Position numbers and translations under genes: made by a program
The notes under the pieces: model-generated
What the model was told of the DNA's origin: nothing
The model's database searches: none
What the model saw: the letters and a program-made list of their open reading frames with translations, nothing else
Assembly (NCBI GenBank): GCA_013306675.1
Contig: JABLUY010000135.1
Span: 36,451 to 100,450, forward strand
DNA length: 64,000 nucleotides
From: Thraustochytrium sp. TN22
Lineage: Eukaryota; Sar; Bigyra; Thraustochytrida; Thraustochytriidae
Direction of reading: 5' to 3'
Shown: piece after piece, positions 8,504-62,942 of the stretch
How positions within the stretch are numbered: the stretch's first letter is position 1
Layout of the letters: each line of letters opens with the position of its first letter

Positions 8504-10610
8504 ATGGGCTTCGTGTCGTTCGCGGCAGCTGGCCTCTTGGCGCTGCAAGCAATCATGCTCATGGTGAAGACGAGAGGCCTGTCGTGCAACTGTGCGACCA
8601 TCGCGTGCGACCCAAGCGATTTTTCCAGCCTAACGACATCAGCCTGGGTCACCTGCTCAAGCCTAGCGACCTTCCCGACGACCGTGAGCTTCCTGACCGA
8701 TCTCACTCGCCTGGAAATCACCACGAGCACCTTCTCGGCAGTGGACCCGGTGTCCATCGCCACACTCACCAAGCTCGAGAAGCTGTGAGTGTACCAGAAC
8801 AAAACCATCGTTGCGCCCGCGAATATCACCGCAAGCTCACAGCACGAGTCTCGTGTGACAGGACCGTGTCGAGGTGCAAGAACGTCAAGGAACTTCCCGA
8901 CGAGATCACCACCCTGAGCACCCTCACCAAGCTGTACGTTACAACGGCGGCGACCGAGCAAGGGCATCATGGCCGCTTTTCATTGCCGCCTGACAGCAAC
9001 GTGCGGCCTGCTGTGCCAAAATTTCCACAGATACCTGCAGTCCGATGGCCTGACCAGCCTTCCCTCTGGCCTTGGAAACTTGACCTTACTCACATCACTT
9101 AACGTGGCTGCCAACAAGCTCACGGACATGCCCGCCTCGCTCAGTGCCCTCGGCGCCCTGGAGGTGCTGGAGGCTAGTGACAACGACATCAGCACGATCG
9201 GCTCCGGTCTCTTCCCGGAGCTCGCCAACCTGCGAACGCTGTACGTTCCCGTCAAGCTGCAACACGGACGCGCTGCGCAAGCTGATTCCATTCAAACCCA
9301 GCGAGCTTCATCAAAATGACATTGCGGATCTTCCGGACGACATGGATGGCCTTACCGATCTGAGGGAAATGTGCGTTGGCCTGTTGTTCAGTTCCTGCGT
9401 CTCCCATACATATTCAACGCGCCAGGGGATTGCTCACGCCTCTGCGTTTCCACAGTCGGCTCTCGCGGAACCCGATGACAACACTGCCAGCCTCCCTGTC
9501 TGCCGCCACGCAGCTGCGCACGCTGTACGTTGCTCTTTCCGATTTGGAGGCTGCTTTTCGTGACAACTAAGTTGAACAACCCGAGGGATCTCTATCGCAG
9601 CGTGGCAAGTGAGTGTGGGCTGCAGTCTATCCCAGAGGAAGTTTTTTCCGGCATGACGTGGCTCTCGTCCCTTTCCTTGGGATGGAACGAGCTTACAGAG
9701 CTTCCCACGACTCTTAATGCCCTCACCAGGCTGACCATGCTGTACGTGACCGCTGGCAAGCGCGGAAACCACGAGATGGACTCTATTGGAACTGACCTAG
9801 CAACATGAATGCACAGTGCCTTTCAGAGCAACAGCATTGCAACCATACCAGCTTTGGGCTCGACCACGGACCTAACCGACATGTACGTACGATGGGTAAA
9901 GCTTGCAAGCGCAGCACGGCTGACCTCACCTCGCCTCGGCGTGCTGCAGCCTTGCCAACTCTAACTTTATTCGTACGATACCCTCCTCGATTCGGACCCT
10001 CGCCAAGTATTACGCCCTCACGATGCTCAACCTCGAGGACAACCCGCTATGTGGACCACAGCCCTCAGGGATTTTCGCAGTCTCCACCCTCACTGCGCTC
10101 ACGTCCAGCTCCATCCCCCCTTCTTGTCCATCGACACCAAGCCCGACCAAGGAGCCCACCGCTTTCCCTACTCGTGACCCAACTCCAGACCCCACGCCTG
10201 CTCCGACGGAAACGCCTGCTCCGACGGAAACGCCCACGGTAAGGCCCACGACGGAACCAACGATGGAGCCTACGTTTCTGCCCACGGAGACGCCTACGCT
10301 CTGGCCTACGAAGGAGCCGACGCCAAGGCCCACGGACGTGCCGACAGCGGAGCCCACGGAATCTCCGATCGCTAACGCTTCTATCAACTCGACCGAGGCG
10401 CCGACCACACAGGCAAACACCACGTCCGATTCGACGCAAGCCCCGGCGGGGACGCTTCCTGCGGCCACGGCAAGTCCGACCACCGCCGTAGGTGAAGACC
10501 AGCCCACGCCTTCGAGCCCAGAGCCCACCTCAGGCTCCGGGGCTCGTGCAAGCCCGTTTGAGCTTGCCGTTTCGCTAGGGATTGCAACGCTTGCCGCCAT
10601 TCTCACCTGA
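8504..10610 (+). CDS. Secreted LRR protein with Pro-Thr stalk and predicted GPI anchor, eight exons
   Basis: 522 aa from exons 8504-8784, 8862-8933, 9031-9240, 9302-9370, 9456-9524, 9601-9741, 9817-9882 and 9950-10610. All seven introns (61-97 nt) are phase 2, falling inside a Leu, Met or Ile codon at the end of a repeat; five begin GTACGT. A signal peptide (about residues 1-27, FAAAGLLALQAIMLMV) is followed by a Cys-bearing cap. About nine LRRs come next, with exon sizes of 72, 210, 69, 69, 141 and 66 nt, that is one, three, one, one, two and one repeat (LxxLxxLxLxxNxLxxLP type). An NPLCG-type cap closes the array. A Pro/Thr-rich stalk (PTKEPT, PTPDPTPAPT and similar) then leads to a hydrophobic tail (FELAVSLGIATLAAILT) of GPI-signal type. 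The likely role is cell-surface recognition or adhesion; the ligand is unknown. Confidence 0.85.
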
Positions 10611-10677
10611 TCCTTCCGTGCTACAACAAGGCAAGGATTATGTGGGCCCTCGATCCACTCTCTCATTGCATCCTTCT

Positions 10678-10893: not shown

Positions 10894-13800
10894 TCAGCCG
10901 GCGGCTGCGCTGCCTGAGAGCGCCATCCGCAGCCGCTGTTGGCCTAGGTTGGCCCAGGCACGGGGCCCGGTCCGAGGTCGGGCTCGCCGTGCGGCGAGAG
11001 GCTCTTCCGGGGCCGGGGTGCCTCCGTCCTCGACGCTGCTCGAGTCCCCGTCCTCGCCGTGCGTGGACGAGGCGTCGTCAGCGCTGTCGCCGCCGCGATG
11101 CACCTCACTGCCAGGACCGGCCTGCGCCATCTCGCCATCGCCGGTCTCGACGCTGCCATTTTCCACGACGGGCGCGAGCGAGCGCATCTGCGCGTCGAGC
11201 AGGGCGCGGCGCTCTTTCTTCGCGGCACGTTTCCTGCGCCTGTGCGCGCGATACGCCTTTCGGACCGCTTTGACGATGTCAGCGCGCTGATCCGCGTTGG
11301 AAACGCCAGCCCGCTGCAGCCTATGCTCCTGGAGGTCCCTACAGTCCGCGAGGCTGGTGATGCCGAGTCGCACGAGATTCCGGTACTGCGCCTGGGCGCC
11401 ATGTGCGCTGAAAATATCCGCCAGCGTCTCTCTGCCGTCTTCGCCGACGGAGTCGGAGTCCGAGGCAGGGGTACCCGGCGCGCGCGAGCGGTGCGCGCCC
11501 TGGGGCTCGAAGGACCGGAAGCCCCTAATGATGCGTTCCCTCTCCGCATAGCTGGCCACCCCAACGCCCATCAGGTCGGCGTGAGAGAGTGCCTTGCATC
11601 GACGAACTGTGGCAAACTGGTCAAAGAAAAGACCAACGAGGTCCTCGCGCTTGACCTTGGCGAGGACCTTACGCATGACGGCTTGCTCATCGAGCTCAGT
11701 GAGCGAGAGCCGCGAGCTGGACCGCTTTCCGCGAACCGTGGCACGCAGCGGCTCGTTATGCAGAATACGCAGAAGGCGTTCGCGGCTGGAGTACATGTTG
11801 ACGCCGCATGCGCGCAGGTCACTGTGAGTGGCGCGACGAAGGTGTGCAACGCTCTGAAATTGCTGCGCCATGCCGTTGACATACCTGAGGTAATCTTGCC
11901 CGTATTGGCTGAGGGCGCGCTGCAGCAGGAGCTGCATGTCCTGCACGGAGATGTTCTCCTGGTCATTGGGCTCTACGAGCGCGTCCGTTTCGCTCGTGGT
12001 TTCGAGCGAGGATAGGGAGTCATCCGAGGCCCAGTCGAGGTTGATGCCCGCGCGCTTTGCAGCTTGGCGACGAGCCTCCAGCCTGCTCTCCGCGAAGGGC
12101 TCGGCCGCGTCAAGGACCGCCTGGCGTATCTCGCGCTTGATGCCAGCGTTGTAAAGCTCCTCCTCGGAGCGACGAAGCGCTTGCTCGAGCGAGAAGCCTT
12201 GGCGTCGCACGTTCTCGACGCGGTCGCCCGCGCCCAGGTCTGTGAGCAAGGCTTGCAGAAAGCTATCCCACTCCTCTGGTGAAACGCAGCGCAGGAGGTC
12301 GCGCCCGTGCTTGTGCTTTTCGTGCTTGCGCAGCTTCTTACGCATCTTGCGGTCCTTCTTCTTGCGGTCCTTGGCCTCCTTCTTCATGCGCGCCTGCGTT
12401 GTCTTGGTGATATTCGGGTCAAAGGTGCGGAAGGCCTCCAACAGGCAGGCCCGCTCCGCGGCGTTTTCGATGCCCATGCGCTCCAGCTTCTTGCCCTTGA
12501 GCTTCTTGCACTTGGCCACGCTCCGATATCCTTTGCTCGCCAGGTTCGGGTACAGCCTGAGGAGGTTGACAGCGCGCAGGAGCTCCTTCAGCGTCGCAGT
12601 CTCAGGGTCGTCTGCACCGTCATCCGAGGAGGACACATCTTCGTCTTCCTCCTCGGCACCCGTCGACAGGCTCTCATCCGAGTCCTCCAGGCCTGGCTGC
12701 CGGAACGCGTCCAAGACGAGCGCCCGCGTTGCACTCGCGCCTTCGCCCACAACGCCAAGCTCCTCCAGCGTGTCCGCCGTCAGCTTGCGGCACTTGCGCA
12801 GGGAGTCGCAACCGGAACCCACGAGCAGGTCTGCTATGTAGTTCAGGTCCAGCGCTGCCAGTACCTCGCGCACCTTGGCTGCCCGGGACTCACGGGCCGC
12901 CATGGGGTCCTCCGGGACAGCGCTGGTCGCCACGTCCTTCTCTTCCTCTCCCTCCTCCTCCTCCTCCTCCTCCTCCTCCTCCTCCTCCTCCTCCTCTTGC
13001 GCAACGTCGACCTCGTCATCCACCTCCACCCGCTCCTCGAGGCCCTCCAGGCCAGGCACCTGCGTGATTTGCGTGGTTTGCTGTTGCGCCGAGGCTCGCC
13101 GAAGGCGAAAGGGCCCCAAGACCGGCTCGCCGTCCGCGAGGAGCGTGATGATACGGTCACGGTCCGCAAAGAACGGCACGCCCAAGTCGCGCAGGTCGGC
13201 ATGCGTGAGCGTGCGACAGCGCTTGAGCGAACGAAAGTTGGCGTCCAGAAGCGCGTCCGCGTACTGCTCGAGGCCAGCGTCCAGCAACATCTCGCGAATG
13301 GCCACAGAATCATCGGCTCGGTCCTGCGAGGCGCGCCAGTACACGCGCAGCAGGTTCCGCATGATGCGGGTGGACCGGCGCTCGCGGATGCGCTCCTCGA
13401 GGCTGCGCAAGACGTCGGCGGCGACCGGCCGCGCGGCCGGATCCTGCGCCCAGAGCGCGCGTAGCATGTTGGCGACGCGAGGCTTCCAGGCCGTCTCAGC
13501 GCCGAGCGCCGGCCGTTCGCCGCGGTCCAGCACAGCCTCCTCGATGGCGTCGGGCAGTAGGCCCGCCCACGGCCGCGCACGCTCCTTGAGCTCCCAGCAC
13601 AGCACTCCAAGCGCGTAGATATCCGAAGCCGGTGTCGCATCGGCCTCGGCGCTGGCCAGCAGCTCTGGCGCCAGGTACTCGGGCCGGCGCTGCTGCGGCC
13701 ACACGGCCGGGAGTCCAACGTCGGAGACCCGTACGATGGAGTGCTCCGCGCCCTCCGCCATCATCACGGCATCCGGGTGCAGGTTGCGGTGAACGATGCC

Positions 13801-14745
13801 CTTGCTGTGCAGAAACTCGAGTGCGCGCGTCACGCCCTTGAGAATGGTTTCCTCGTGCTCCATCGAGAGCGTTACGGCGCGATCTGAGAGCACCTCGCGC
13901 AGGCTGCGGTCGAAGCGCTCCACAAGCAGCAGCATACGCACGTCCGGCACGCACAGTCCGAATGCGCGCACCAGGTTGCTGTGCTGCAGGCCCTGCCAGC
14001 GCTCCACGCTGGTCAGCAGCTCCAGGTGCGCGGCGGCCTGCTCGGCGCGCGTCGGTCCTCGCACGCGGCGCACCACCACGGCGCGGCCTTGCCACTGCCC
14101 GCTCACCATGGCGCCCAGGTGGTCGCTGCGCAGCGTCTCCTGCAGCGTTACCTCATCGCTGTGCACGCCGGCCACGCGCAGCTGGCACGCCTGCATGAGC
14201 ATGGGCAGCACGCGCTCCACCTGTAGCTTGAACCTGGAGTCCTCGCGCGACTGAAGGCTCGCCTCCATGTCGCGCCACCCGAGCCGCTCTGCCTCGGCAG
14301 CCAGCGCCTCCAGGTTGTCCTCCTCCAGCTCCGGCACCTCGCGCCGCACGTGCCGCAGCGCCGACACAAAGGCCTGCGCGTCGCGCTCGCCGTCCCGCGC
14401 GTGCTCGTCCTCCGCGTCAGCGGCCGCCTCCGCATCGGGCCCGGCCTCCCCTTCGCGCCGCACCGCCTCGCGCAGCGCCTCCTCCAGGCGCTCCAGCTTG
14501 GCCAGCTGCGTGCGCGCGGCCACGTACTGCACGAGCACGAGCGCCGAGTACGCCCCCGCGCCGCCGCTCTGCGGCGCCGCCAGCGTGCCGGCAACCTGCA
14601 GCAGCGCGCGCAGGTCGTCCTCCTGCTCGGGGCCCGCGCCGCCGTCGCGCGCTGCGCGGGCGAGCGCCGCCAGCCGCGCCGCGCGCAGCCGCAGCGTCGC
14701 GGCGCGCTCCAGCGCGGCCGCCGCCGCGGCCGCCATCTCCGCCAT
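10894..14745 (-). CDS. TKL-like pseudokinase followed by seven SAM-like domains
   Basis: 1283 aa; ATG at 14745 (MAEMAAAA) is chosen because upstream sequence is homopolymeric. An Ala-rich helical N-terminus leads to a kinase fold (about residues 205-460) with IVHRNLHPDAV, VRVSDVG and APELLA landmarks. The catalytic Asp is Asn321 (HRN) and the beta-3 Lys is replaced (VVVRRV), so it is probably inactive. Seven repeats of about 60 aa follow, near 475-538, 620-682, 718-772, 823-885, 933-1000, 1016-1080 and 1103-1163. They share the pattern LLxxxxLxxYxxxLxxxxFxSLxxCxxLTxxDLxxLGV, a SAM signature. A Glu run and Lys-rich linkers separate them. SAM domains often polymerise, so a scaffold role is inferred. 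It is a tandem paralogue of the gene at 15539-21184 and is read from the same strand. Confidence 0.8.
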   Translation of the reverse strand: MAEMAAAAAAALERAATLRLRAARLAALARAARDGGAGPEQEDDLRALLQVAGTLAAPQSGGAGAYSALVLVQYVAARTQLAKLERLEEALREAVRREGEAGPDAEAAADAEDEHARDGERDAQAFVSALRHVRREVPELEEDNLEALAAEAERLGWRDMEASLQSREDSRFKLQVERVLPMLMQACQLRVAGVHSDEVTLQETLRSDHLGAMVSGQWQGRAVVVRRVRGPTRAEQAAAHLELLTSVERWQGLQHSNLVRAFGLCVPDVRMLLLVERFDRSLREVLSDRAVTLSMEHEETILKGVTRALEFLHSKGIVHRNLHPDAVMMAEGAEHSIVRVSDVGLPAVWPQQRRPEYLAPELLASAEADATPASDIYALGVLCWELKERARPWAGLLPDAIEEAVLDRGERPALGAETAWKPRVANMLRALWAQDPAARPVAADVLRSLEERIRERRSTRIMRNLLRVYWRASQDRADDSVAIREMLLDAGLEQYADALLDANFRSLKRCRTLTHADLRDLGVPFFADRDRIITLLADGEPVLGPFRLRRASAQQQTTQITQVPGLEGLEERVEVDDEVDVAQEEEEEEEEEEEEEEEGEEEKDVATSAVPEDPMAARESRAAKVREVLAALDLNYIADLLVGSGCDSLRKCRKLTADTLEELGVVGEGASATRALVLDAFRQPGLEDSDESLSTGAEEEDEDVSSSDDGADDPETATLKELLRAVNLLRLYPNLASKGYRSVAKCKKLKGKKLERMGIENAAERACLLEAFRTFDPNITKTTQARMKKEAKDRKKKDRKMRKKLRKHEKHKHGRDLLRCVSPEEWDSFLQALLTDLGAGDRVENVRRQGFSLEQALRRSEEELYNAGIKREIRQAVLDAAEPFAESRLEARRQAAKRAGINLDWASDDSLSSLETTSETDALVEPNDQENISVQDMQLLLQRALSQYGQDYLRYVNGMAQQFQSVAHLRRATHSDLRACGVNMYSSRERLLRILHNEPLRATVRGKRSSSRLSLTELDEQAVMRKVLAKVKREDLVGLFFDQFATVRRCKALSHADLMGVGVASYAERERIIRGFRSFEPQGAHRSRAPGTPASDSDSVGEDGRETLADIFSAHGAQAQYRNLVRLGITSLADCRDLQEHRLQRAGVSNADQRADIVKAVRKAYRAHRRRKRAAKKERRALLDAQMRSLAPVVENGSVETGDGEMAQAGPGSEVHRGGDSADDASSTHGEDGDSSSVEDGGTPAPEEPLAARRARPRTGPRAWANLGQQRLRMALSGSAAAG

Positions 14746-14817
14746 GCCGCCGCGCGCCGCCGCCGCGCCGTCGCGGGGGGGAGAGGGGGGGGGAGGGGGG
14801 GCGCGACGCGCCGCCGC

Positions 14818-14870
<53 letters not shown>

Positions 14871-15538
14871 CTGCCGAGCGCGCCGCGTTGCGTGGTTGCG
14901 GAGGCGGAGAACGCGACGCGCGCGGCGCGTGCAGCCAGGTAAGGTAGGTGAGGCGGTACGTGCCCGACGAGGGCGCCGGAAGCTCGGGCGACCCGGAGGA
15001 GGACGTCGCCGATGTCTCGGGCCGCTGGTCAGGGCGGCGGCTCGGTGGGCGCCTCGTGCTCGATTTCCTCGCTGACTTACGCTCTCGCTCAGCTGGTCTG
15101 AACGTCACAGATGTCGCCTGGCGCGCCGGAGGTGAAGGTGATGGGGGTCGAGTCGACGCCGCGCGCCAAGCCGTGCACTCACTGTCAGCTCAGCTTGGAC
15201 GGTGCCGCGTGCTGCATTGCTCACTGACGCACGCGCACATGGCTGATCGATGTCAGATGACGGAACGGTGGACTCGGGCGGCGTCATTTATGTGGCGGCC
15301 CGGACGTGGAGCGGACGAGTGGGCCGCTCGCCGCGGCCACGGTCCCGGCGTTGCTGGGCCGGCGGAGCAGAAGCGGATGGACGTGATGCGTAGCCAAGTC
15401 GCTCGCCATCGTATCGCGCCTCGCGCGCTCACGCGCGGCGACGACAAACGGAGACCATTGTTCAATCGAAAGATGAGTGCGTTTGCACAAGCAAAGATAA
15501 GAGCGCCGCGCGAGCCGCTCGCCTGAGAACATGCCGCG
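14746..15538. other. Intergenic region between tandem pseudokinase genes
   Basis: These 793 bp should contain the promoter of the downstream paralogue and the 3' UTR of the upstream one. Next to the start are G-rich runs (14776-14802) and a (GCC)n run (about 14826-14868). The rest has no recognisable gene. Confidence 0.4.
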
Positions 15539-17613
15539 TCAGCTGTAGGAGCTGTCAGTCGAGATGCTGCGCGAGCGGCGTCGGCGTCGGCGGCGAGGAC
15601 GGTTGCGGCGAGGGGCGCTTCCGTCGCTGCTACTAGAATCTGGAGGCGCCGGCCGGAGGTCAACATTGCGGACGAAGAGGCGGTCGCCGGCGCTCGTCTC
15701 AACCTCGAAGCAGTTGCGCGGGAGGAGGGCACGCACAAAGAAGATCGCGTTCGGAGTCGAGCCCGATGGTGGGACGCGCATCTGCACGCGGTCGTTCAAA
15801 GCAAACTTGTGCGCCTTGCCGAGGCTCGCGAGCGGGCGCAACTTGGCACCCAGATGCGCCAGCGGGAGTGGGCGACGCTCAGGCTCTTCGAGGATGCGGC
15901 CCAGCACCGCCTGCGCCTGGTCTGACGGGACGCCGCACGACTGGAGGGCTCTCTCATTGGCGTTGCGGAGGCTCTCAACCGTGATGAAACCGGCATCGTA
16001 AAGGCGGTCAAAGTGTTGCTGCATGCTGATGGACCTGAGCACGTTCTTTAGTCGCTTCGCTTGCGGCGACTCCTTGCCCGAGGGCTTGTGGCTTGACAAT
16101 CCCAGTCGACGGCGAATGCGCGCGGACAGCCCCGGCGCGCTGTCACTATCGGAGCTGCTGCCGGAGCTGCTGCTTCTGGCGCTGCTGCCAGAGCTGCTGC
16201 TGGCGCTGCTGCCAGAGCTGCTGCCAGAGCTGCTGCCAGAGCTGCTGCCAGAGCTGCTGCCGGACCTGTTTTCGCTCCCGTCAGCCCCGTTGCCCCCATC
16301 ACTGTCGCTGTCGCTCGCCGCAGAAGCGTGTGAGCCGACACTGCGGCTGCTTGGGCGGCCGTGGGCGTTGCTGGCAGAAGCAGCGAGGCCACCATTCTGC
16401 TGAGCAGCATCATCTGGTCCGCTCCTGGTCTGTGCAGCTCCCACCGGGCCTTCTGAAACTGCGGCCGTGCCGAGCTCGACGTCGGGCGTCTCGGCGCCCC
16501 CCTCAGCATTGTCCGGCACAGCCTGGCCGTTCGCGACCTCCGGGTGATTCCCGTCGTCCTCGCCAAGCACGCTCCCTGGAGCGCCCGCCTCACCAACAGC
16601 CACGCCAGCAGCCGCGCTCGACCGGCGATGACCGGCGACGCGCTTGCGCGCCGCGGCCAGGGCCGCAGTGGCCCGTTGGCGGAGCGACTGGGTTGGTGGT
16701 TCTTCTCGAATGCGGTCCATGATGAGAACACGCTGGTCCTCGGAAAAGATGCCGCAGCGCCGCATGTCCGAAGTTGTAAGACCTTGGCACGCCCGCACGG
16801 AGCCGACCCCGATGTCACAGAGCGCCTCGTGGTAGCGCTCCATGTTGATGCTTTCGAGAATCCGCCGCAGGCGTCGCGCGTCCCTGGTGGAGGCCAGGGC
16901 GCGCAGCTCCCTCGCCGCGAATGTGGAGGATCTGAGGGAGTCATGCGTGGTGTCAGAGTCACTGTTCGTCGCGCTGCTATCTGAGGATGAGCCAGGAGCA
17001 CGAGAGCGCCGAGGCGAGCGCACACGCGCACGCCGGGCCTGCAAGCGTAACGCGAAGCACGTGGCGCCCTCCATAATCGCTTCGGCATCATGGAGGATGG
17101 GGAGGATTGCATCGGAATGGTTTCTGGCGTCGCCGGACAGCTGTGACGCCAATGCACGCTCGCATTTTTCAAGGCTGTCGAATTTGTTTGCGAGGTCCCT
17201 CACCATACGAGGGGTGAGGTCAGTGACGGAAGCTGTCAGCTCCTGTATCAGGGCGCGCCGGACCTCGGGGGTGAAACGGGACCGACGGTGCAATCGTTCG
17301 GCGACCAGACCATGATTCGCATTCACCTGTGCGGCGTCGAGGCTCGCAAACGCGCGAAGGATGGCGGCGCGATCCGTGAAGAGTACACCGGCCCTTTGGA
17401 GGTCTTCATCCGTCGCCGTCTTGCATACCTCCACCGTGCGAAAGTACGCCGCCAGCGGGGCCGCCCAGCGCTCAAGACCTGCGCCCGAGAGGGCCTCACG
17501 CAGACTCTCCGCGAGCAGAACGGCTGGATCGGAGGCATGGTTGTCCTTGTCTGCCGACTTTCGACTCGAGCGGCGGCCGCCACCGCGAGCCCCGTCGCTA
17601 CCGCTACCGCTAC

Positions 17614-17647
<34 letters not shown>

Positions 17648-20600
17648 GCCGTCGCCGCCGCCGCGGCTCCTAAAAGTCCTCGAAGGGCCGTCTCGTCGCA
17701 TCCTCGAAGGGCCGCCTCGTCGCATCCCCGTCAACTTCTTGGAGGTCTTTTCGACGCCCGCCTCCTTACGAAAGGCAGCGATGTGCCTCCTCCGCACCCG
17801 CTCATCGCGCAATGCACGACAAGCCTTGAGGATTTTAAATCGCGCCGCACGAGGAACGCTAGCTGCTTGGAGCTCGACGTGAGAGGAGTTCAGGGCCTTT
17901 GCTAGCGTGAAGCCCGCTCTCAGCGCGGGCTGGAGGCGGTCTTGCTCTCCGCAGTCTGCGAAGATAGCCCGCAGGGCTCGCTCCTCGCGCGGGGAGACCA
18001 GATTAGAGCCGGCGGCCCTGCGCGTACGCCCCGGCGAGCCTGACGAGCCCGAGGAATGCGAGGAGGAAGTGCTCGAAAACCTTCGTGGTCGGCGTCGGCC
18101 CTGCCCCCCTCGCCTTCTTGGCGCATCGCTCCCACTGCTACCGCTCCCGCCGCGGCTCCTGCTCCTGCTGCCCTCGCCGCTTGCGTCGCCCTCGCCACTG
18201 CCCCGCCGCCGAGACGGACGCTCTGCCATGAGTCGTCTTGCACCCTCGTGGGACCCCGCGAGTAGAATGAGCTGCCTTGCGCCCGTGGACACGCCGATTT
18301 GGGTCAGGAGCCTCGCCTGCTCAGCTGGGGTGTTCTCCAAGGAGAAGCCCACCTGCAGAGCCTCTGGCAGCTTCTGAGCAACGCCTGCGAAAGCAAAGAC
18401 AGCTTCAAGAACGCTCTCCTGCGGCGTCGGTGCGACGCTTGTGGGCTGGGCCGTGGTCCGTGGCCCAGATGAGTTCGACGCCGTCCGGCTTGGGCGCTGC
18501 CGGCGGGTCCCGCCAGACAACGAGGCGTCCGAAGAGGAGGACGAAGATGACGAGGACGAGGAGGACGGCTCGTCCGTCAAGCTCCCGTCAAACTTGTTGC
18601 ACTCCGTGAGGATGCCGAAGCGCTGGCTCAGAGGTACCATGGCCTTTCTCAGCTCGACGTGCGAGTTCTGCTTGCCGAGCGCAATCGTGAAGCCTGCCTT
18701 CATCGCTGGCTGCAGAAACTCCGTGGCGCGGGCCTTGTTGAAGATCCTCCTGAGTACTTCTTGTTCCTTTTGGCCAGGGACCTTGCGCGTCTTTTTCGGA
18801 TGCAAAGCTTTCGCCTTGGCGCTGGCGCTGGAGCGCGCTGATGTTCTACCTGTACGAGAGCGAGAGCGAGAGCGAGAGCGAGAGCGAGAGCGATGCGGGT
18901 TCCTCCTGTCGACGTGCTCCTGTCCTGCGTCTGTCCGCTTCGCGTCTGCGTCTGAAGACGTTTCGGAGCCGGCCACCTCATCGTCAGACTCTGCAGCATG
19001 GTCGTCAGAACCAGCGGCATCATCGTCAGATTCTGTGTCGTCGTCGACAGAATCGGCGGCATCATCGTCGTAACCAGCGACTTCTTCATCGTCACTGCTC
19101 GGCATGTCACCGTCGCCGCTGGTCCAGGCCTGACAGGCCCTGAGAATTTGGAAGCGGCGTGCCGCGGAGATGCCGGCGTTGCGCAGCTCATCCATCGAGC
19201 CTGACCTGCCCGCTTCAAGGCTGAAGCCGCAGTGCAATGCATCCTCCAACTTGTCCTGCACGCCAGCGCCTGCGAAGATGGCGACCAGAGCCACATTTGC
19301 TTGCGCGTGGAGGCTGCCCGCCATGGTCGCGCCTTCTTGTACCTCCTCCGCATCATCGCTCTCGTCCTCTGCCGCCGTCCGCATTTCTCCAACCTCATCT
19401 TCCACTTGCTCCTCCTCGCCCGCCTCTGATTCTTCCTCTTTTTCTCCGTCCCCGTCTCCATCGTGATCGTCGTCGTCGTCGTCGTCGTCGTCGTTTGGGT
19501 CATCATTTTTCGGTAGCAGGTCATCCTCACCCTCGTCCTTCTCCTCTGCTGTTGGCGCAGACGAGACCTGGGCTTTGACCGCTTTTCCTCTTGGTGCAGC
19601 GGCGTTGTCTAAATCATCATCAGAACCGTGACGAAGATCGTCGACGTCGTTGACAGCGGGCGCGGCTCGTGGGTGCGAGCGCCGCAGCATGAGGAGCGTC
19701 TTCATGACCCGCGTGGAGCGGCGGTCACGAACGCGCGTGCTGATGGCGGCCAGCAGCTTGGAGGCCGTCGGGCGGATGCTCGCATCAGCCGCCCAGGCAT
19801 CCTGCACGAGCTTGCGCAGCTTGGTGTCCCATACGCGCACATCCGACGTCATGGGCGGGCGGCCGCCGGCCAGCACGCGCGACACAATGTCGGGGCCCGC
19901 CAGATCGCTGGACCAGGGCGCGCGTCGTTCCTTGACGGCAAAGCAGAGGATGGCAAAAGCGAAAACGTCGGAGGCGCGCGACCATAGCGGCGGGCCCTCG
20001 GGCCCCAGGAGCTCCGGCGCCGCGTAGGAGGCGGCCTCGGTGCTTTCGTGCAGCGAGGCCGGCGGCGCGCCGAGGTCCGTGAGCTTGACGTTGGAGCGCA
20101 AGTGGCGCGCCAGGAGAACGCTGGCAGGGCTCAGGTTGCGGTGCACAATCCCGAGGGTGTGGAGATGGGCGAGCGCGCGCAGGACGCCCTTGAGAATGGT
20201 GGCCTCCTCGTCAGCAGTGAGCGCCGGAGCCTCGGGGTCCAGGACATCGCTCAGGCTGAGCTCGCAGAGCTCCACGACGAGCTGCACCCGCGTGTCCAGC
20301 GCAACGGAGAGGCCAAGCACCCGGACCACGTTGCGGTGGCGCACGAGGTCCCACTCGCGAATGCAGCGCAGGACGGTGCGGCCGTCGGCCGCGTCCACGT
20401 CGCGGATCACGGCGACGGCCTGGCCGCGCCATTCAGCCGCCACGGCGACGCCAAAGCGGCCGCTATAGAGAGTTTCCTCGCCGACCACAAGGTCGCAGGG
20501 CGGTATGGAGGCGAGAGAGCGCTGTGCGTCCGCGCCGGCGCGCGTCGCCATGGTGCGGAGGATCGCTGCGGCGGCCGTGCCCTTGCGGCCCTCGGCCGTG

Positions 20601-21184
20601 GCACTCTCGTCGGTGAGCGCCGCGCAAATTTGCGCGGCGGTCGCTGCCTCGAGCGCACTCTGCAGAGCCTCGAGCTCCTCATCGGCCGACCGGGCGCCAG
20701 GATGCGCCAGCCGGGCGCGGACTATTTCGCGCAAGTCGCCCAGGTCATCTTCAAGGTCGGTGTCCTCGTCCTCGTCCTCATCCTCATCCGCGTCCTGGTC
20801 CTGGTCCTGGTCCTGGTCCTGGTCCTGGTCGGCCTCGTCCTCGTCCTCGGCCTCGGACGCGGCGCCCGCCAGCCAGTTGAGCGCGGCCGTGACGCTGCGC
20901 AGTGCGTCTGCCTCCTCGCAGGCTGCCACGAAGCGCGCGACGCAGATCTCCTCGTCGCCGGCCTCTCCCTGGCGCAGCTCGTCGAGACGTCGCACGACGT
21001 CGAGCGCCGCGCGCGCGCGCTGCTCCACCGCCGTGCGGGTCGACGCGGCCACTTGTCGCGCGCGCAGCTTGCTGGCAGCCGCCTCTGCAGCCTTGGCCAG
21101 CGCGGCGCGCCGCCGCGGCAGCACCTGCAGCGCGGCGGCCTCGTCGCCGAGCGTCTCCAGCAGCGCGTCCACGGTGCCGTCCAT
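15539..21184 (-). CDS. Large TKL-like pseudokinase with eight SAM-like domains and RS-rich segments
   Basis: 1881 aa, start ATG at 21184 (MDGTVDALLE). The kinase fold (about residues 238-511) again has HRN (Asn350) instead of HRD, VAVI instead of VAxK, and TDLG. The next 1300 residues alternate SAM-like units with Ser, Asp/Glu or RS low complexity. Four units of a diverged subtype (about 625-685, 805-862, 918-980, 1063-1128) share an IFxxxGxxxxLxxALxxGF core. Four more typical SAM units lie near 1220-1283, 1308-1368, 1435-1498 and 1711-1766. A small beta-rich domain (about 1791-1848, NDRVQMRV...CFEVETSAGDRLFVRNVDLRP) resembles Tudor/SH3-like folds. The tail is Arg/Ser-rich and ends TDSSYS. 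RS repeats near 765-782 and at the tail suggest nuclear or condensate localisation (inference). Function is unknown. Confidence 0.8.
16178..16262. repeat. In-frame 12-nt repeat coding Ser-Ser-Gly-Ser
   Basis: Repeats of the word GAGCTGCTGCCA (and GAGCTGCTGCTG variants) inside the larger pseudokinase gene encode an SSGS linker on the minus strand, between the seventh and eighth SAM-like units. The near-perfect nucleotide repetition indicates recent slippage. Confidence 0.8.
18855..18893. repeat. In-frame hexanucleotide repeat coding Arg-Ser dipeptides
   Basis: (GAGAGC)n-type repeat inside the larger pseudokinase gene. On the minus strand it reads alternating Arg and Ser codons, giving an RS-dipeptide run. 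Confidence 0.85.
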
Positions 21185-38366: not shown

Positions 38367-39793
38367 ACCTGCTGTGCGTGGCGCGCTCCATCCCAACGAA
38401 GAGGCTGCTGACCACGCGCCAGTCAACGCGCGCGCTCTCTCTCTCTCTACCTCTTCGCTACCGTCGCCAGAGCGCTAAATCATAGCCTACACAGACGAGA
38501 TTTGCGCCTTGTTTCTGGCGGTCGACCGACCAGCAGAACGCACACCGAGAGAGAAGGCCGCGTGAGGGCGCCCCGGCCGTCGAGCTCAGCTCGCACCAGT
38601 CGTGCATCGCCCAGCCGTTGGCGCCCCGGCGCGGCGGAGTCCGACTTGGAGCCGTGAGCACCTGCATCGACCCGATTCGACCGTGACGAGCCAAAGATTC
38701 TGGTCTCGCAACAGCCATTCATCCGTCTCGTCTCCACCCTAGCATCTAGCTAGCTAGCCCCGTGGCTGGCAAGCCCGGCACGCACACAAAGCTATCGCCA
38801 AAGCCGAATTGCTGCCACCTTCTCGCGGCGGCCACGCCGCCACGCGCCCGGCGCCCCGTCCCGGCCCGTCCCGCCCACCGCCGACGGTGACGGCGTCCTC
38901 CTCCAACCCGAGCGAGCCGCCTCCTCGTTGTTCCTCGGGCGCCTCCCAGGTCGCAGCCCTCGCAGCCTGCGAGCCCCAACCTGCGGCAGCCTGCGGCAGC
39001 CTGCGAGCCTCCTCGGTGCTTGCAGCCAACCCAACCCACCTGCCAGCGCTGCCGGCGACCACGGCGGCCGCGGCTCGCTGCCTCGCATCAGCTCACCGTC
39101 AACTCAACTCGAAGGAGGCTCGCGGCGTCGGAACATCGGAGGCGGCTCGGCCTGGCTCGGCCTGCTGCGCCTGCTCGGCCTCCGGCTCGTCCAGCTCGGG
39201 CTGCTCCCTTGGTGGCGGATCACAGACAGCAGCAGCCAGGCGCCTGGCGCGTGGCACACCCCACCCCGTCCGTGCCCTCGCAGAGGCTCGCAGAGGCAGT
39301 GCTACTCGTGCTCACCACTGCCAGAGCCTGACTGCCAGCGAGCGCTCTTCAAGTTCTGCCAGAGGGAGTCAGAGGCCTGCTGTCGGTGCCTGCCGGTGCC
39401 TACCGGTGCCTGCCGGTGCCACGCCCGATCGTGGTCGGCGTGCCGCGTCATCCCGCTCATCTCATCCCATCTGCGTGCCGTGCCAGGCCTGCCCAGGCTG
39501 CGTGCGCTACCTGGTAGCCCAGGCCGAGGCCGGCGACATACATACATTCGCAGTCAACGAACTCCGATCGCTCGATCACTCCGTCGATCAATCCGTCAAC
39601 CAGCTGCTCGCTCGCTCGCTCGCTCGCTCGCCCGGCCGCCAGCCCGGCAGGCGAGCGCTCGCTGCGGCCTGCTCGCGCGCGGCGGCGGCGGCGCTGCGGT
39701 GGCGCGTGGGCGCTCGCTCGCTTGCGCGATTCGCGGCGCGTGGCGGGCGCGTGGCGGCGGACCGCGGCGGCGGACCGCGGCGGCGCAAGAGCG
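38367..39793. other. 1.4-kb intergenic region with simple repeats
   Basis: This lies upstream of the TIR-like/TPR gene. Open frames are long on the plus strand but have no domain character. Simple tracts: (CT)n at about 38440-38452, CTAGCTAGCTAG at 38745-38757, GTGCCTGCCGGTGCC repeats near 39386-39420, and (GCTC)n at 39606-39632. An unrecognised short gene cannot be excluded. Confidence 0.4.
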
Positions 39794-41647
39794 ATGCTGG
39801 CGCGCGCGCGCAAGAGCCTGCGGCGGAGCAGGCGCGAGGAGGCGTGCGTGGTGGACTTCAGGAGCGTGAGCATCGGGTTCCTGGAGGAGGTCTCGCGCGA
39901 CGTGCTGGACGGCGCGCTGGCGCCCGGCGTGCGGCTCTTCGTGGCCACGCGCGACCTGGGCGACGGCGTGGAGGAGGGCAGCACGCTGGAGCTGGTGGCC
40001 GAGGAGGACGACGACGGCTGCCTGACGGGCCGCGCGAGGTGCCCGCCGCGCGAGGTGCGCTTCCGCGAGGGCGAGGACGCCGTGGAGAAGGCGCGCGAGG
40101 ACTGGACCACCGAGGACGTGGCCGCCCACGTGGTGCTGGCGCGCACGCGCGAGAAGCAGCACGGCGACGTGTACGTGAACGCGGTGGCGGACCCGTCGCA
40201 CGTGGGCGACGAGTACCAGGGCTCCTTCGTGAGCCACGCGCGGCGGTGCAACTTCCACGGGCTCGTCGCGGCGGCAGCGGACTTCCTCGCGAACGAGCCG
40301 CCCGAGCTGCGCTACGTCTGGGTTGACGTCTTTTGCGCGAACCAGCCGCTGCTGACGTGCCAGGACCAGCCGGACGCCAAGACGCGCAAGCAGCGCGAGA
40401 GCCTGCTCACCGACGGCCTGCACGAGGCCATTCAGCGCTTCTCCAGCGTGCTCCTCTTCGTGGACCGCTGGGACGCGCCCGCGCCCATGGAGCGCGCGTG
40501 GTGCGTCTGGGAGATGTACGGCGCCGTGCGCAGCGGCCGCCCGCTGCACGTCATCTACGCGCCCGGCGAGGAGGACCGCTTCATGCAGACGCTGCTGGAC
40601 GACGCGGACGAGATCGCCGCCCGCATGTCAGCCAAGATGGACGTACGCGCCGCCGCCTGCTTGAAACCCGAGGACAAGGTCATGATCGACTGCGCCATCA
40701 ACGAGAAGCTCGAGGGCGGCTACGCGGCGCTCAACACCGAGGTGGAGTCTCGCCAGCGCGACTGGCTCACTGCCATCGCGCGCGACAAGATCAACGCCGC
40801 GCGTTGGCAGGACGGCGATGTCCTCGAGATGGCGCACGTGCTTGCCCGGGTCGGCTACCTGCTCAAGACGCAGGGCTGCTACGACGAGGCGCTGCAGGAC
40901 TTCACCGAGGCGCTGGAGATCTACCACGAGCATCTCGGCACGGACCACCTCGACACCGCCGCTATGCTCAACAACATCGGCGGTGTCTGCAAGGCCCTGG
41001 GCCGCCACGACGAGGCCATGCGCCACTTCCACGACGCGCTCGCCATTTACAAGCAGGCCCACGGCGCCAGCCACCCCAGCGTGGCCATCACCATCAACCT
41101 CATCGCCGGCGTGCACATGGCCCAGAGCCGCCACGAGGAGGCCCTCGAAAAGTACGAGGAGGCCCTTGAAATTTACCGCAGCGTGCTCGGCCCGCGCGAC
41201 CAGGCCGTCGCTCTCTCGCTCTGCAGCATCGCCGAGGCCTACGAGGCCCAGGGCTTCTCCCAGGCCGCTCTTGAGTTCTACGATGAGGCGCTTGCTGTCT
41301 CGCGGGACGTCTGCGGCCCCACTGACCCTTGTGTCGGCGTCACGCTCAACAACATCGGCCAGATCCACAAGGACCAGGGCCGCCTCGACGCGGCGCTCGC
41401 CAGCTTCAACGAGGCCCTCGCCTTTTTCGAGCACGCTCTCGGTCCTGGCCACCCGCTCGTCGCCACCACGCTCAGCAACATCGCCATGGCCCACGTCAAG
41501 GGCGAGGACCTGCTCACCGCCCTGCCCTTTTTGGAGCGCGCCCTCGCCATTCGCCTCGACGTCCTTGGCCCCGCCCACCCCGACACCCAGGACACCCAGG
41601 ACCTCGTCCGCGCCTGCCAGGACTTTCTCGCCACCGCTTCAGGTTGA
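39794..41647 (+). CDS. TIR-like / TPR (kinesin-light-chain type) repeat protein
   Basis: 617 aa, ATG at 39794 (MLARARKSLRRSRREE). The N-terminal 140 residues are unassigned. Residues about 140-280 carry SHARRCNFHGLV, YVWVDVFCANQP, LTDGLHEAIQRFSSVLLFVDRWDAP and RAWCVWEMYGAV. This W-x-D-x-F-C-x-N-Q ... R-x-W-C-x-W-E pattern belongs to a TIR-like domain found in front of TPR arrays in many algae and protists. Residues about 345-610 are TPRs of the 42-aa kinesin-light-chain type (GYLLKTQGCYDEALQDFTEAL, ALEIYHEHLGTDHLDTAAMLNNIG, and so on), at least five full units and one weaker. It is probably cytosolic. It resembles intracellular receptor or adaptor layouts, but no nucleotide-binding domain lies between the two parts. 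Enzyme activity is unproven: the NADase Glu of TIR cannot be assigned by eye. Confidence 0.8.
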   Translation: MLARARKSLRRSRREEACVVDFRSVSIGFLEEVSRDVLDGALAPGVRLFVATRDLGDGVEEGSTLELVAEEDDDGCLTGRARCPPREVRFREGEDAVEKAREDWTTEDVAAHVVLARTREKQHGDVYVNAVADPSHVGDEYQGSFVSHARRCNFHGLVAAAADFLANEPPELRYVWVDVFCANQPLLTCQDQPDAKTRKQRESLLTDGLHEAIQRFSSVLLFVDRWDAPAPMERAWCVWEMYGAVRSGRPLHVIYAPGEEDRFMQTLLDDADEIAARMSAKMDVRAAACLKPEDKVMIDCAINEKLEGGYAALNTEVESRQRDWLTAIARDKINAARWQDGDVLEMAHVLARVGYLLKTQGCYDEALQDFTEALEIYHEHLGTDHLDTAAMLNNIGGVCKALGRHDEAMRHFHDALAIYKQAHGASHPSVAITINLIAGVHMAQSRHEEALEKYEEALEIYRSVLGPRDQAVALSLCSIAEAYEAQGFSQAALEFYDEALAVSRDVCGPTDPCVGVTLNNIGQIHKDQGRLDAALASFNEALAFFEHALGPGHPLVATTLSNIAMAHVKGEDLLTALPFLERALAIRLDVLGPAHPDTQDTQDLVRACQDFLATASG

Positions 41648-43713: not shown

Positions 43714-46700
43714 TTAGGTCCGCGCCAAGATAGCAGCATCGTCGTGAGCGCTGTTTTCGTCATCGTCGCCAACCTGACTTTCGATGAATGAGGTCTCGCC
43801 AAGTCCTCCGCGCGTGGAGTTGTTGGGCGTCTTGCCTCCACCTAGGCCTGCCGGAGCAGCCTTGGCTTGGGGGAACGCAGTGCGGTAGTCGTCGGAGGTG
43901 GGCTCCACGAAGAGGATCTCCGAGACGTCCTGGACGTCTCGTGATGCCGTCTCCTCAGCTTTTCGGGTATCAGGCGCCTGTCCCTCCTCCGTGTCGCGGG
44001 CGCCCTCCGTGGAGCGAGCTGCCCGGGGGTGGAACAAGATGCAGGCGAGCATGACACAGAGAATCTCCAATGCGAGGACAAAGCCGGCCAAGCCAATGGC
44101 AGAGTCCTGGCCGAGGGCACCGGACGTGTTGGCCTGCGCAATGAAGCTGAGGACGGTGAGGAGGCCCATCGAAATGACCGCCACGCTCTGGTCACTGGGG
44201 TCCGCGTAGGGCTGTACCAGAATCATAAAAGCCATGAAGCCCACACAGCACGCAGAGAAGAAGATGATGCCGCCAGCCTCGCTATTCTGAAAGGCGAGAA
44301 GGAAGAGCGAGGAGAGCGTGAAGCGGCGGACAAGGTCGAAGCTCGCGAACCACGAGTAGTCCTGCCCAAAGGGCTCCCGCAGGAAGCGCGTCGCATCGGC
44401 GACTGCGGCTGCGTAGTCCCAGAGGCAGTTCGACTCACGGCCAAAGTAGTATCCGCCGGCCAAAAAGAGGATGGCCGTGCCAAGCGGGTAGAGCGCCATC
44501 ATGACCCCAGCGTAGATGCGCGCTGCGCGGGCCTCGGGAGTGTCGAAGTCGACCGTGTAGTCGGCGCGCAAAGCGCGGAAGGGCTCCGGGTCGTCCGGGT
44601 AGCGCGGCATTTTCTGATACAGAAAGGTCTCCATGAGGGTGCTGGCGATGCCAATGTAGCAGAAGCTGAGCAGGTGGAAGGCAAACTTGGTGGCAAAGCG
44701 CAGCGCGGCAAGCGTAGACAGGGCGCGGGGGCGCATGATCATGGCGACCACTACGAGTGCGGCTGTGGGCGCGATGGCCGCGAGCGGCAGCAGTGTGACC
44801 AGCAGGAGCTCCTGCATGTGCCCGGGGAGCCAAGCGCAGCCAATGTGCAGCGGCGCCGCAAAGGCCGCAACATTGGCCTCGAGCAGGGCCGTCAGCACGG
44901 ACCCATTCGACGGGCGGAGCAGACTGGTTGTCGAGAGGAAAAGTGAAGCCAGCTGGGCGAAGGCAACGAGGATGCGGACCTTGTCGCCCAGTCTCGCCTT
45001 CCCCGTCTCCAGACGAGACACCGCGCGCGTCAGATGCAGCCTTTCCGCCAGCGGACGGCGCGGTGCGGACGGCGACGCCTCCGAGGAAGACTTGCCGCGG
45101 CGCGCGGCGCAACGCGAAGAGGCAAACGCGCCTTCCTCGCGGAGAAAGATAGCCAGCGTAGCCACTGCAGGGGCCGCGAGCAAGAGGACGAGGAGCGCCA
45201 GGAGCCCACCGGCCACGCTGCGGTCTTGTTGCGTGCGCGCCTCGCTGCAGAGCTCGCACGTGCCGGCCCCGCGGTCGCTGTAGCCGTCCTCGCACTGCAC
45301 GCAGAGTACGCCGAGGCGATGCGCCGCGCAGTAGTCCGGGTACGCGCCCCCCTTGCAGAATGCGGTCTCGCAGCTGAGGAAGTCCGTACTGCGATTGGAG
45401 ATTCGCCAGTAGCCCTCTCGCAGCGGCGCGGTCTCCAGCGTGAGCCCTGCCTCGCTGCAGTTCTGCGCGGCCTGGCAGAACTCCGTGACGCCATCGATCT
45501 CGAGCGAGCCGGCAGCCGCGACGCAGCCCTCGACGCTTGTCGTGCCTGCCGCGAGGGTCTCTGGGGCGTCTTCCGGGCAAGCGCTGCAGATGCTGTCGTC
45601 CTCCGGGTGCGTGTAAAAGCCCTTGGCGCACGCGCAGATGTCGCCCACCGGCTCCCGGTCGCTGGAGCATGCGCACTCATCCGCGCTCTGAGCGCCGACG
45701 TGCTGCGTCAGCGCGCCGCCGGGATCGCATTCCGTGCAGGCGGTTGCCTCGTCCAGGCTCGCGCTGTAGGTCCCGAGCGGACAGCTCGAGCACCGTGATG
45801 CGTCCGCGTCAAGGAAAGTGCCCGCCGGGCAGCGGCAGGCGACGGCGCCGTCAGCTGCCACGACCCGCACGAAGCCCTCGTCACAGATGCAGTCGTCCAG
45901 CGTGAGCGCGATGGGAAAGGCGGGCCGCGAGGCGGTGTGCGAGTACAGCGGGCAGGACCGGTCGCACTGCAGGCCGTAGACGTCGTCTCGTGCGCAGCGC
46001 TCGCAGGAGACGCCAGTAAATGCCGAAGCATTGTTGCAGGCGCAGGTACCAATCAGAGACCAGTCAACGTCATCATTCAAGAGGCCCTGTTGGAGGCTGA
46101 GGCCCATGAGCAGGCGGTCCGCGTCCGTGAGGGATCCTGCCAAGGCCAAGTCGGGCTCGATGCAGGAGCCTCGGAAGGAGCACATCGCCATGCAGTCACG
46201 CGCGGTGTTCTGGGCCAGCGCGAGGCTGGTTTCACCGGTCTGGAAGGCGGCCGACGTTCCGAGCGCGTCAACGTCACCATCGCCGTCCACGTCCATCAAC
46301 GCGAGGGTGCTTCCCAAACCTGTCTCGAAGGTGAAGTCCTGCAGCCTGAACACCGGCGTCGATCCGTCGCCGTTCTCGCGGAGAAGACATGCCACGACGC
46401 CCTGGCTCCCGTCCCAGATGAGGACATCCTCGCGGCCGTCAAAGTCCGCGTCGAAGAACTCGAGGCCTGCGCGCTGCGAGAAGAAGCTACCGAGGTCCGA
46501 CGTGATGTTGGCCATGGGCATCAGGATGCTCGTCGAAGGGTAGTAGGCGGAGGTCAGGTTGCCTTGATTTTTCGCAAAGAGCACGCCGTCCTGCCCGAGA
46601 GCGAGAAGGTCGACCAGGCCGTCGCCGTCCAGGTCCGCGAAGATCAGGTCAACCACACCCCGCATGTCGGTGAGCGTTCGGAATGGGTTGGCGTCATCGA

Positions 46701-48312: not shown

Positions 48313-49826
48313 CCTCCAAGGGCCCCGGCCGGTGCCGGCCGGCCTGCGGCGTCGCGCGGCGAGAGGCACTGGAGGCGCGCGTGGCGGCTGCCGCGCGGCG
48401 CGCGCGCGGCGAGCTGCAGGCGCTGCAGGCCGCGGCAGGCCGCGGCAGGCCGCGGCAGGCCGCGCGCCCCGGGCCCCGATTTGATTTGAATTTGCCCACT
48501 GTCCGGCAACCAGGCTTGTGCGGGGGACTACGCCGCAGCACAGGCTGCCGGCACTGCAGGCGTCCTCGGGCTGACTCGGACTCGGACGGTTGCTGCCAGG
48601 GGTCGGAGAGGACGAGCAAGACCGAGGACCCGGCCGTGCGGGGAATCAACTTGATCACAAGGGGCCAAGGGCCACTGCCTGCACGAGCCTGTTTGCGCAG
48701 TGCTGACTGCACGGTCATCACGGTCATCAACTCAGGGTTGTCCGAGTCTTCAAGTTGTCCTGACGGCCGGGGCGGTTGCCTTGCCTTTGGACGTTTTTTT
48801 TGAGCGCGCAAAGCCGACACAACGACCGAACCCGAAGAAGCGACAAACTGGAACGACGAGGTCACGAGGTGACTTTGTGGTTGCGGGGCGCCGGAGCATG
48901 TTCCTTCGCTCTCGAGCGCTCTCGGGCTCAGATCAGTGAGTCATTCCGCAGGCCACGCGCCGCCGGCGGAGGCCTCCAAGTTGGTCGCGCAAGCGGCCCA
49001 ACAACCAAGTGCCGACCCCTGCTCTGCAAGACAGCGCAAGTCTGCCTGCAAGACAGCGCGCGGTCCCGTTCTCCCCCTCGACGCACGTGGATGTCCCTCC
49101 GCGGCGTCCGTCCCTTAGTCCCCCAACCCAAGCCAGCCGCGCTCTCCTCGCGCGTCTCTCCCCCTTCATCCTCTCCTCCGCGCTCCCTCGCCTCGCCTCC
49201 TCGCGGCTCGCCTGCCTCGCTCGCCTCCTCGCCCGCCTCCGCTCTCCGCGCGCCTGGTAGCTCCCTCCGCGCTCCTGTCATCCAGCCCTCCTCCTAGCTA
49301 GGCAGGCGGCAGGCCGCCATCCCTGTCCTCGGCGCCCAGGCAGGCAGGCAGGCAGGCAGGCGTCAGGCAGGCAGGCAGGCGTCAGGCCGGCGGCGCCCTC
49401 CTCGCGCCGCCGCCGCGCGCGCCGCCGCCGCGCGCGCCGCCGCCGCGCGCCGCGCGGCGCCGCGCGGCGTCCGGGCTGCCGCGGCCAGCGCAGGGCGCTC
49501 GCGCGCGTGGCCGCGCGTGCTCCTACATTCATCGCGTGCACACGCCGCGCTGGCCGCGCTCGCTCGCTCGCTCGCGCCCGCGCGCGCTCGCCTCGCCTCG
49601 CCTCGCCTCGCGCGCCGCTCGCTCGCCTCGGGCGCGCGCCGCGCGGCGCCTCGCGGGCGCGGCGCGCAGGCAGGCAGGCGGCGCGGCGCGGCGCGGCGCG
49701 TGCAGGCAACCTCGACGTCGGGCGGGCTGAGGCCGGCACGCGCTGGCTGCGCTACGCTACGGACAGGAGTGGATACGTACGATACGAGGGGGGAGGGAGG
49801 GTCGGGGGCGGCGCGCGCGCGCGGCA
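48313..49826. other. 1.5-kb divergent intergenic region
   Basis: This lies between divergent starts at 48312 (-) and 49827 (+). Tracts: GGCAGGCCGCGGCAGGCCGC near 48428-48466, (GGCA)n at 49340-49385, (GCC)n near 49400-49455 and (GCTC)n/(CGCCT)n near 49555-49625. No convincing gene. Confidence 0.4.
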
Positions 49827-51572: not shown

Positions 51573-51962
51573 ATCTAAGATAAGTAATAAACCCAAGCGG
51601 GTTTTTTCTCATGTGCTCCCAGTCCGAACGCAAAGGTCACGCGCATGGTGTAACAAATGCCGATGCGCGCGTCAAAACCTGGCAATCCAGCCGCAAGCAA
51701 GCCATTCCCGTGTCAGCTTGAACCGAGCAAGGCACGCACTGGCACTGAAACTTGCGACCGAGCGGCCAAGGCCTGGCCGTGCCGGTGCTGAGGTTTTGTC
51801 ACCTGTGAGGAGAAACCAGGCCTAACTTCGGCCTAACGGCGGTGGTTAGGCCGGGCCTAGTAAGCAGGCTGCGGCCACGAGCCTCGTTTCGGACGCGGAG
51901 CCCATGGACGCGATCAAAGCCAAGCCAAGCCAAGCCAGCCCGCGGCGGCGCGGCGGCCCCGG
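51573..51962. other. Intergenic region upstream of STK36-like gene
   Basis: These 390 bp carry the 3' end of the oxidase transcript and the STK36 promoter. An inverted repeat GGCCTAAC...GTTAGGCC lies at about 51830-51851, with extra CTAACTTCGGCC copies beside it. AGCCAAGCCAAGCCAAGCC lies just upstream of the start. Confidence 0.45.
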
Positions 51963-53379: not shown

Positions 53380-53423
<44 letters not shown>

Positions 53424-57162: not shown

Positions 57163-57500
57163 GCTGACTGGCCGCCGACCCGTGACACATGTAGCACTAT
57201 CGTAAGTCAGCGATCGATCATCCTGCACGAACATTCCTCGCACGAGCGTCCTTGCCAGCATACTTGCGCACGTCACGTTGTTGATCGTGCGCCCCCCGGG
57301 CCCTCGCGCGCGAAAAGCGAGCCACGATCGTAGGCGGATCGTTCCCAGCACCGGATGAGGAGACATGGAAGACCACCGCGCAGCGCATCAAACACGCAAC
57401 GCGGCAGCGGACAGGCAGACTGGGCGAGCGCGGACGGGAAGGAGGCAGCAAGCCAGACGCGAGCGACGTCTCCGTTCGTGCAGAGAGAGCGAGAGAGAAC
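57163..57500. other. Intergenic region between STK36-like and EEP genes
   Basis: 338 bp with no recognisable gene. It holds the 3' end of the STK36-like transcript and the promoter of the next gene, including AGAGAGCGAGAGAG just before the ATG at 57501. Confidence 0.4.
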
Positions 57501-62774: not shown

Positions 62775-62901
62775 TGACGCCGCGTGCTCTGCCGCGTTCT
62801 GCTGCGCCGCGCCGCCGCGCGAGGCGACCCGACCCGAGCCGACGAGGCGCCTCGAAGTGGAGTGGCCACTGCCAAGTCGAGCCAAGGCAACGTCAACCTC
62901 A

Positions 62902-62942
<41 letters not shown>

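Follow-up and report, generated by a model that had tools for sequence, protein, structure and literature searches.

Tandem Thraustochytrium genes encode putative TKL-type pseudokinases followed by trains of seven and eight SAM-like repeats

Two adjacent genes in a 64,000-nucleotide stretch of DNA from Thraustochytrium sp. TN22 (the window) encode long proteins in which a putative pseudokinase is followed by a train of SAM-like repeats. Gene A (10894–14745, minus strand) encodes 1283 aa, comprising an Ala/Leu-rich N-terminal region, the pseudokinase and seven repeats; gene B (15539–21184, minus strand) encodes 1881 aa, comprising an N-terminal Ala/Leu-rich region with an acidic D/Q/E run, the pseudokinase, eight repeats and a basic C-terminal tail. 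On balance we lean towards regarding A and B as paralogous scaffolds that are multivalent through their SAMs and headed by a pseudokinase. The head, which might also have a regulatory part, would be a non-catalytic site to which an active kinase of the TKL or MAP3K type, or another client, would bind, and the trains would offer seven or eight docking sites per chain for SAM–SAM contacts, which might form inside one chain, link A to B, and engage further SAM proteins in the cell. Clients would thereby be concentrated in large assemblies.

The genes lie head to tail on the minus strand, and both frames are open over the full lengths given in an earlier sequence-only reading, from in-frame Met codons at 14745 (A) and 21184 (B); frames open through 1283 and 1881 codons argue against pseudogenes. 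Since long frames are expected by chance at the GC content of the window (66.8%), homology and codon bias were used as gene evidence. Long ORFs at 52801–57162 (plus strand) and 54535–57366 (minus strand) overlap on opposite strands, showing how cheap such frames are at this composition; Pfam matches, to HEAT repeats close to the end, occur in the plus-strand member only. With codon usage scored in 60-codon blocks, the frame from the Met was the best of the three on its strand in 21/21 blocks of A and 27/31 of B. Against all six frames it was best in 16/21 and 17/31 blocks, respectively, and in the low-complexity blocks of B the coding frame was frequently beaten. Codon scores were poor upstream of both Met codons, which fits the start codons chosen earlier. 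Directly downstream of gene A, a minus-strand ORF at 10010–10666 is rich in VG-type low-complexity repeats and may be no gene.

The layout common to both genes, a kinase and then seven or eight SAM-like repeats, is supported by Pfam matches and repeat scoring. The kinase domain of A spans 13402–14148 (minus strand; PK_Tyr_Ser-Thr, E = 1.3e-25) and that of B 19748–20479 (minus strand), a span defined by PK_Tyr_Ser-Thr (1.2e-18), with Pkinase giving the best kinase E-value for B (4.3e-20). BLASTP aligns the two domains with 38% identity across 294 residues (E = 4e-45). The closest solved relatives by sequence are MLK4, CTR1 and RIPK1 for A, and TAK1, then TAO3, RIPK1 and B-RAF for B. With a joint profile of both domains, RIPK1, CTR1, TAK1, B-RAF, MLK4 and KSR2 rank above the first STE kinase, TAO3, which ranks as high as 8th for B alone. 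The matched kinases are mostly what we take to be TKL members (the group names TKL and STE are our own attribution), and by the ranking of best matches both domains are assigned to the TKL type.

Alignment of A and B shows HRN in place of HRD in both proteins, at 13783–13791 in A and 20135–20143 in B (both minus strand), as the sequence-only reading had noticed; the HER3 pseudokinase likewise carries HRN. In place of HRDLKPEN, A has HRNLHPDA and B has HRNLSPAS, with loss of the catalytic-loop Lys (His in A, Ser in B) and Asn (Ala in A, Ser in B). The beta-3 Lys, also reported missing, is indeed absent: the N-lobe stretch from the Gly-rich loop to beta-4 contains no Lys in either protein, whatever alignment is used, and by eye the VAIK position is occupied by R in A and I in B. 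A possible loss of the alphaC Glu was also weighed by eye, but the N-lobe alignment is too loose for a claim. The activation segment is short, with a DxG-to-APE distance of 14 residues in A and 16 in B; another kinase of the window, which is intact and, in contrast to A and B, retains ALK, HRD and DFG, has 22. The motifs APE, SD, RP and RRSTR are common to both copies despite the 38% identity. We conclude that, as judged by sequence, the kinase domains of A and B are pseudokinases. Nucleotide binding is still conceivable because the DFG Asp is kept (DVG in A, DLG in B). The intact kinase itself, an ordinary protein kinase, lies at 51963–52913 (plus strand); its Pkinase match stops at profile position 203 of 263, and the gene may run on in another frame or past an intron.

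These kinase relatives bear on an alternative that we consider possible, though well short of probable, in which the pseudokinase would pair with and activate a TKL kinase, as KSR pairs with RAF and switches it on, and the SAM train would mainly position the complex via other SAM proteins, with no need for self-assembly. The presence of RIPK1, CTR1, TAK1, B-RAF and KSR among the best solved relatives is consistent with such a role, as is the alignment of A to one EphA2 chain in a single stretch spanning the kinase and the first SAM. KSR, however, is not the closest relative, being outranked by RIPK1 and CTR1 in the joint profile, and the retention of so many SAMs would be left unexplained. HER3, through its HRN, and KSR1 and KSR2, through their place among the sequence matches, resemble A and B in the kinase domain; we know of no SAM train in the HER3 or KSR pseudokinases.

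The docking sites of the favoured multivalent scaffold would be the 15 repeats behind the kinases (7 in A and 8 in B), which were delimited by eye; the shuffle scoring tests their coherence, not their discovery. Over the whole proteins, Pfam SAM_1 reached 5.1e-21 in A and 5.8e-8 in B. Scored with a model of the other 14 repeats, each of the 15 beat all 200 of its own shuffles, at 9.8 to 58.8 bits; the lowest was B6 (9.8 bits versus 4.4 for its best shuffle). Profile searches recovered the kinase and SAM_1 in both genes, although for repeats run singly the outcome was mixed: 9/15 matched SAM_1 at E ≤ 1, whereas B1, B2 and B3 matched no Pfam family and B6 no SAM model. A 15-repeat model found 15 significant stretches among 968 six-frame pieces of the window, all of them in ORFs A and B, an in-sample result, and nothing up to an E-value of 1 in the pieces outside the two ORFs. 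The same profile matched 22 PDB sequences at E ≤ 0.01, headed by a SHIP2/EphA2 chain (2.1e-8), ARAP2 and SAMD5. SAM cores are kept in A and B. The earlier count of seven and eight SAM-like repeats is borne out by the leave-one-out scoring, by the SAM_1 matches and by a profile link to the most divergent members.

The repeats comprise nine canonical members, of which A has six and B has three, together with five divergent ones (A4 and B1–B4) and one degenerate member (B6), all encoded on the minus strand. Right behind the kinase of A lies the canonical SAM A1 (13123–13314; SAM_1 8.2e-7 singly), followed by canonical A2 (12694–12891; SAM_1 0.0044 singly) and by A3 (12421–12606), placed in the canonical class by repeat models and strongly basic by its charge (pI 10.0). 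After the divergent A4 (12094–12279; SAM_2 0.031 singly) come canonical A5 (11749–11949; SAM_1 0.024 singly), A6 (11509–11691; canonical class by repeat models) and A7 (11254–11439), canonical by repeat models and weakly similar to the divergent class in the tree. The train of B opens with B1 (19124–19306), B2 (18590–18769) and B3 (18245–18424), assigned to the divergent class by repeat models and class identity, and divergent B4 (17810–17989), modelled as a five-helix bundle. B5 (17336–17518) is of the canonical class by repeat models, and the degenerate B6 (17078–17272) is the weakest repeat. The strongest SAM_1 stretch in B (ORF residues 1469–1525) lies in canonical B7 (16697–16888), and its strongest SAM_EPH stretch (ORF residues 1740–1794) in canonical B8 (15881–16063).

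The divergent class was the most doubtful as to fold. A4 and B1–B3 are each 32–45% identical to B4. By sequence, the class profile had seven PDB matches (best E = 0.002) with no SAM among them, their names suggesting designed repeat or helical proteins. Profile–profile comparison with the nine canonical repeats gave 95.5% probability (E = 1.3e-8), and structure prediction from the five divergent repeats alone yielded five helices at a pLDDT of 95.3. In a Foldseek search with this model, 49 of the best 50 of 82 PDB matches have titles that name SAM, among them Tankyrase, Tric1, BICC1, Shank2, ANKS3 and Caskin, and the other is an EphA2/SHIP2 complex, also matched as SAM by the 15-repeat profile. 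None of the PDB matches is significant at an E-value of 0.001 (best 0.49), and the TM-scores by query length range from 0.54 to 0.69. In a viral library, 4 of 16 weak matches were named SAM proteins of giant viruses. The divergent repeats A4 and B1–B4 are accordingly described here as a predicted five-helix SAM bundle; a non-SAM fold, which would have counted against the repeats, did not emerge.

That catalytic loss preceded the duplication, as the sequence-only reading proposed, finds partial agreement. HRN, the missing N-lobe Lys and the short activation segment are common to both copies, whereas the replacements of the Lys, the Asn and the VAIK residue differ, and HRD to HRN is the only catalytic-site replacement identical in A and B. 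Where the replacements differ, either the sites drifted later or the losses were in part independent. Collinearity is lacking between the trains: B opens with four divergent repeats and A has one, in fourth place. With both class and order differing, the two trains are not simple duplicates of a single one. In a tree built from the 15 short repeats, A4 falls together with B1–B4 (89/85), joined by A7 (82/83), and 0/12 of the inner branches are starred; a position-by-position pairing of the trains was dropped on these grounds. The pattern suggests that each train expanded internally, either later than the duplication or at about the same time.

Upstream of the kinase, BLASTP gives no alignment of A with B. 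The N-termini are weakly homologous, the whole-region score being reached by 4/500 shuffles, that of the first 115 and 110 residues by 13/500, and that of the later part by 438/500. Their composition, Ala/Leu-rich and proline-poor, would fit the helical N-terminus proposed earlier, although the structure model is too low in confidence for use: predicted for A from an alignment of two rows, the N-terminus plus kinase (mean pLDDT 39.5) consisted of helices only, kinase included, and the model was discarded. No third copy was found among the 968 six-frame pieces of the window with the kinase model or with a longer two-row model. Apart from A and B themselves, only the ordinary kinase (51864–52910) is matched by the kinase model; the longer model also picks up, through its acidic N-terminal part, a weak match at 62778–63122 (E = 0.09). 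A search of viral contigs found no relatives of A or B. In bacterial and archaeal genomes at least 7 distant matches turned up, with identities between 25 and 32% and confined to the kinase, and we take them for ordinary bacterial kinases.

The linkers of A and B are low in complexity and segregated in charge. Net linker charges are, in order, +2, -23, -14, +14, -6, +4 and -2 in A, with a tail of +2, and -37, -10, +1, +15, +14, +3, +5 and -3 in B, with a tail of +15. The cumulative charge range behind the kinase is 44 in A versus a shuffle mean of 26.8 (reached by 8/2000 shuffles) and 73 in B versus 25.5 (0/2000), and net charge goes from -22 in the first half of this region to +5 in the second in A, and from -11 to +19 in B. 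Acidic stretches are the poly-Glu linker A1–A2 (12892–13122, minus strand; net -23 over 77 aa) and the linker between the kinase and B1 (19307–19690, minus strand; net -37 over 128 aa). The A3–A4 linker (12280–12420, minus strand) is basic, with 43% Lys/Arg, and the B1–B2 linker contains six consecutive RS dipeptides (18857–18892, minus strand). Behind B8, a segment at 15647–15805 (minus strand) ending in LRP is, by eye, a putative small beta domain, which we take to resemble an SH3/Tudor-type small barrel. The 113-aa tail of B is Arg/Ser-rich and has no Pfam match.

Polymer-forming SAMs present acidic mid-loop and basic end-helix surfaces. A crude charge count finds this combination in just 2/15 repeats (B1 and A6), which may speak against simple homopolymers, and the repeat pI, which varies between 4.5 and 10.3, points more to heterotypic pairing than to a uniform homopolymer. 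The scaffold or condensate function proposed in the sequence-only reading thus stays plausible, with self-assembly through the SAMs something we infer, but its version as a classic SAM polymer was not supported by the count.

The basic elements could instead point to a nuclear or RNA-linked scaffold, a reading that we regard as unlikely, in which RNA or SR-type partners would be bound by the basic SAMs (A3, B2 and B4) and by three further elements, namely the linker rich in Lys, the run of RS dipeptides and the Arg/Ser tail. The mid-loop part of A3, with a charge of +9, would suit this role, as would the Lys/Arg content of the A3–A4 linker and, in B, the RS dipeptides and Arg-rich tail. Basic low-complexity stretches are, however, common and not diagnostic, and no RNA-binding SAM of the Smaug or VTS1 type occurs among the 22 PDB matches of the repeat profile.

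A more specific form of the multivalent scaffold, to which we likewise give little credence, is a two-gene lattice, in which A and B, with their acidic and basic SAMs and their linkers of blocked charge, would together form a hetero-SAM filament or condensate whose assembly the dead kinase heads would gate, one chain corresponding to about one helical turn of SAMs. In the available portions of published accounts, Tankyrase SAM crystals repeat every six SAMs and Caskin1 polymers have eight SAMs per turn.

That A and B are relaxed, decaying paralogues, with dead kinase domains and repeats expanding without a dedicated role, is very improbable: the long low-complexity runs, the degenerate B6 and the six-frame codon scores of the low-complexity blocks of B would fit decay, yet both frames are intact, and the kinase core motifs and the SAM cores are kept.

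Eph receptors combine an ectodomain with one SAM. Like A and B, they place the kinase before the SAM, and EphB6 is also a pseudokinase (PMC8347583, available text). A and B differ from them in the long SAM train and in the absence of an ephrin-receptor ectodomain match (Pfam, E ≤ 10). Plasmodium pTKL (PF3D7_1106800), according to the available text of PMC6544628, is a TKL pseudokinase that contains one SAM and has been proposed to act as a scaffold. Like A and B, it has a TKL-group kinase domain without catalytic residues, a SAM in the same chain and low-complexity inter-domain stretches; its single SAM, unlike their seven and eight C-terminal repeats, is N-terminal to the kinase, and it carries MORN and RVxF motifs (PMC6544628), whereas neither A nor B has a MORN match (Pfam, E ≤ 10). 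In the available text of a review of multi-SAM proteins (PMC10252437), the liprins, Caskins, SARM1, ANKS1 and SASH1 have several SAMs per chain and scaffold roles, with two or three SAMs each and the liprins as the sole group with three. A and B differ from these in having seven and eight SAM-like repeats and a kinase domain, and a search of that text found no mention of 'kinase domain' or 'pseudokinase' (PMC10252437). The Phytophthora infestans kinome was reported to include two kinases that carry a SAM, an STE and a TKL member, as well as 19 TKLs predicted to be inactive (PMC3019232, available text).

The combination had been called unfamiliar, and in part this holds. No chain with five or more SAMs is described in the available text of the open-licence literature searched, although unannotated proteomes may contain such chains, and phrases of the type 'six SAM domains', where checked, refer in that text to crystal repeats, polymers or multi-protein complexes, not to a single chain; a TKL pseudokinase with one SAM, however, was known (PMC6544628). 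If scaffolds, A and B are an extreme form of a known design, pseudokinases with one SAM and proteins with two or three SAMs being already known. Chains with seven and eight SAMs would offer a test of how intra-chain valence governs SAM assemblies in their length, specificity and phase behaviour, and in A and B nature would have attached a dead TKL-type kinase permanently to a module for multivalent assembly.

By Pfam, the gene content of the window includes SAM, TPR and glucosidase II beta. A TPR protein with five TPR_12 stretches, presumably of the kinesin-light-chain type, is encoded at 39722–41647 (plus strand), and a large ORF at 43714–48369 (minus strand) contains FG-GAP repeats and an Ephrin_rec_like motif (3.8e-8).
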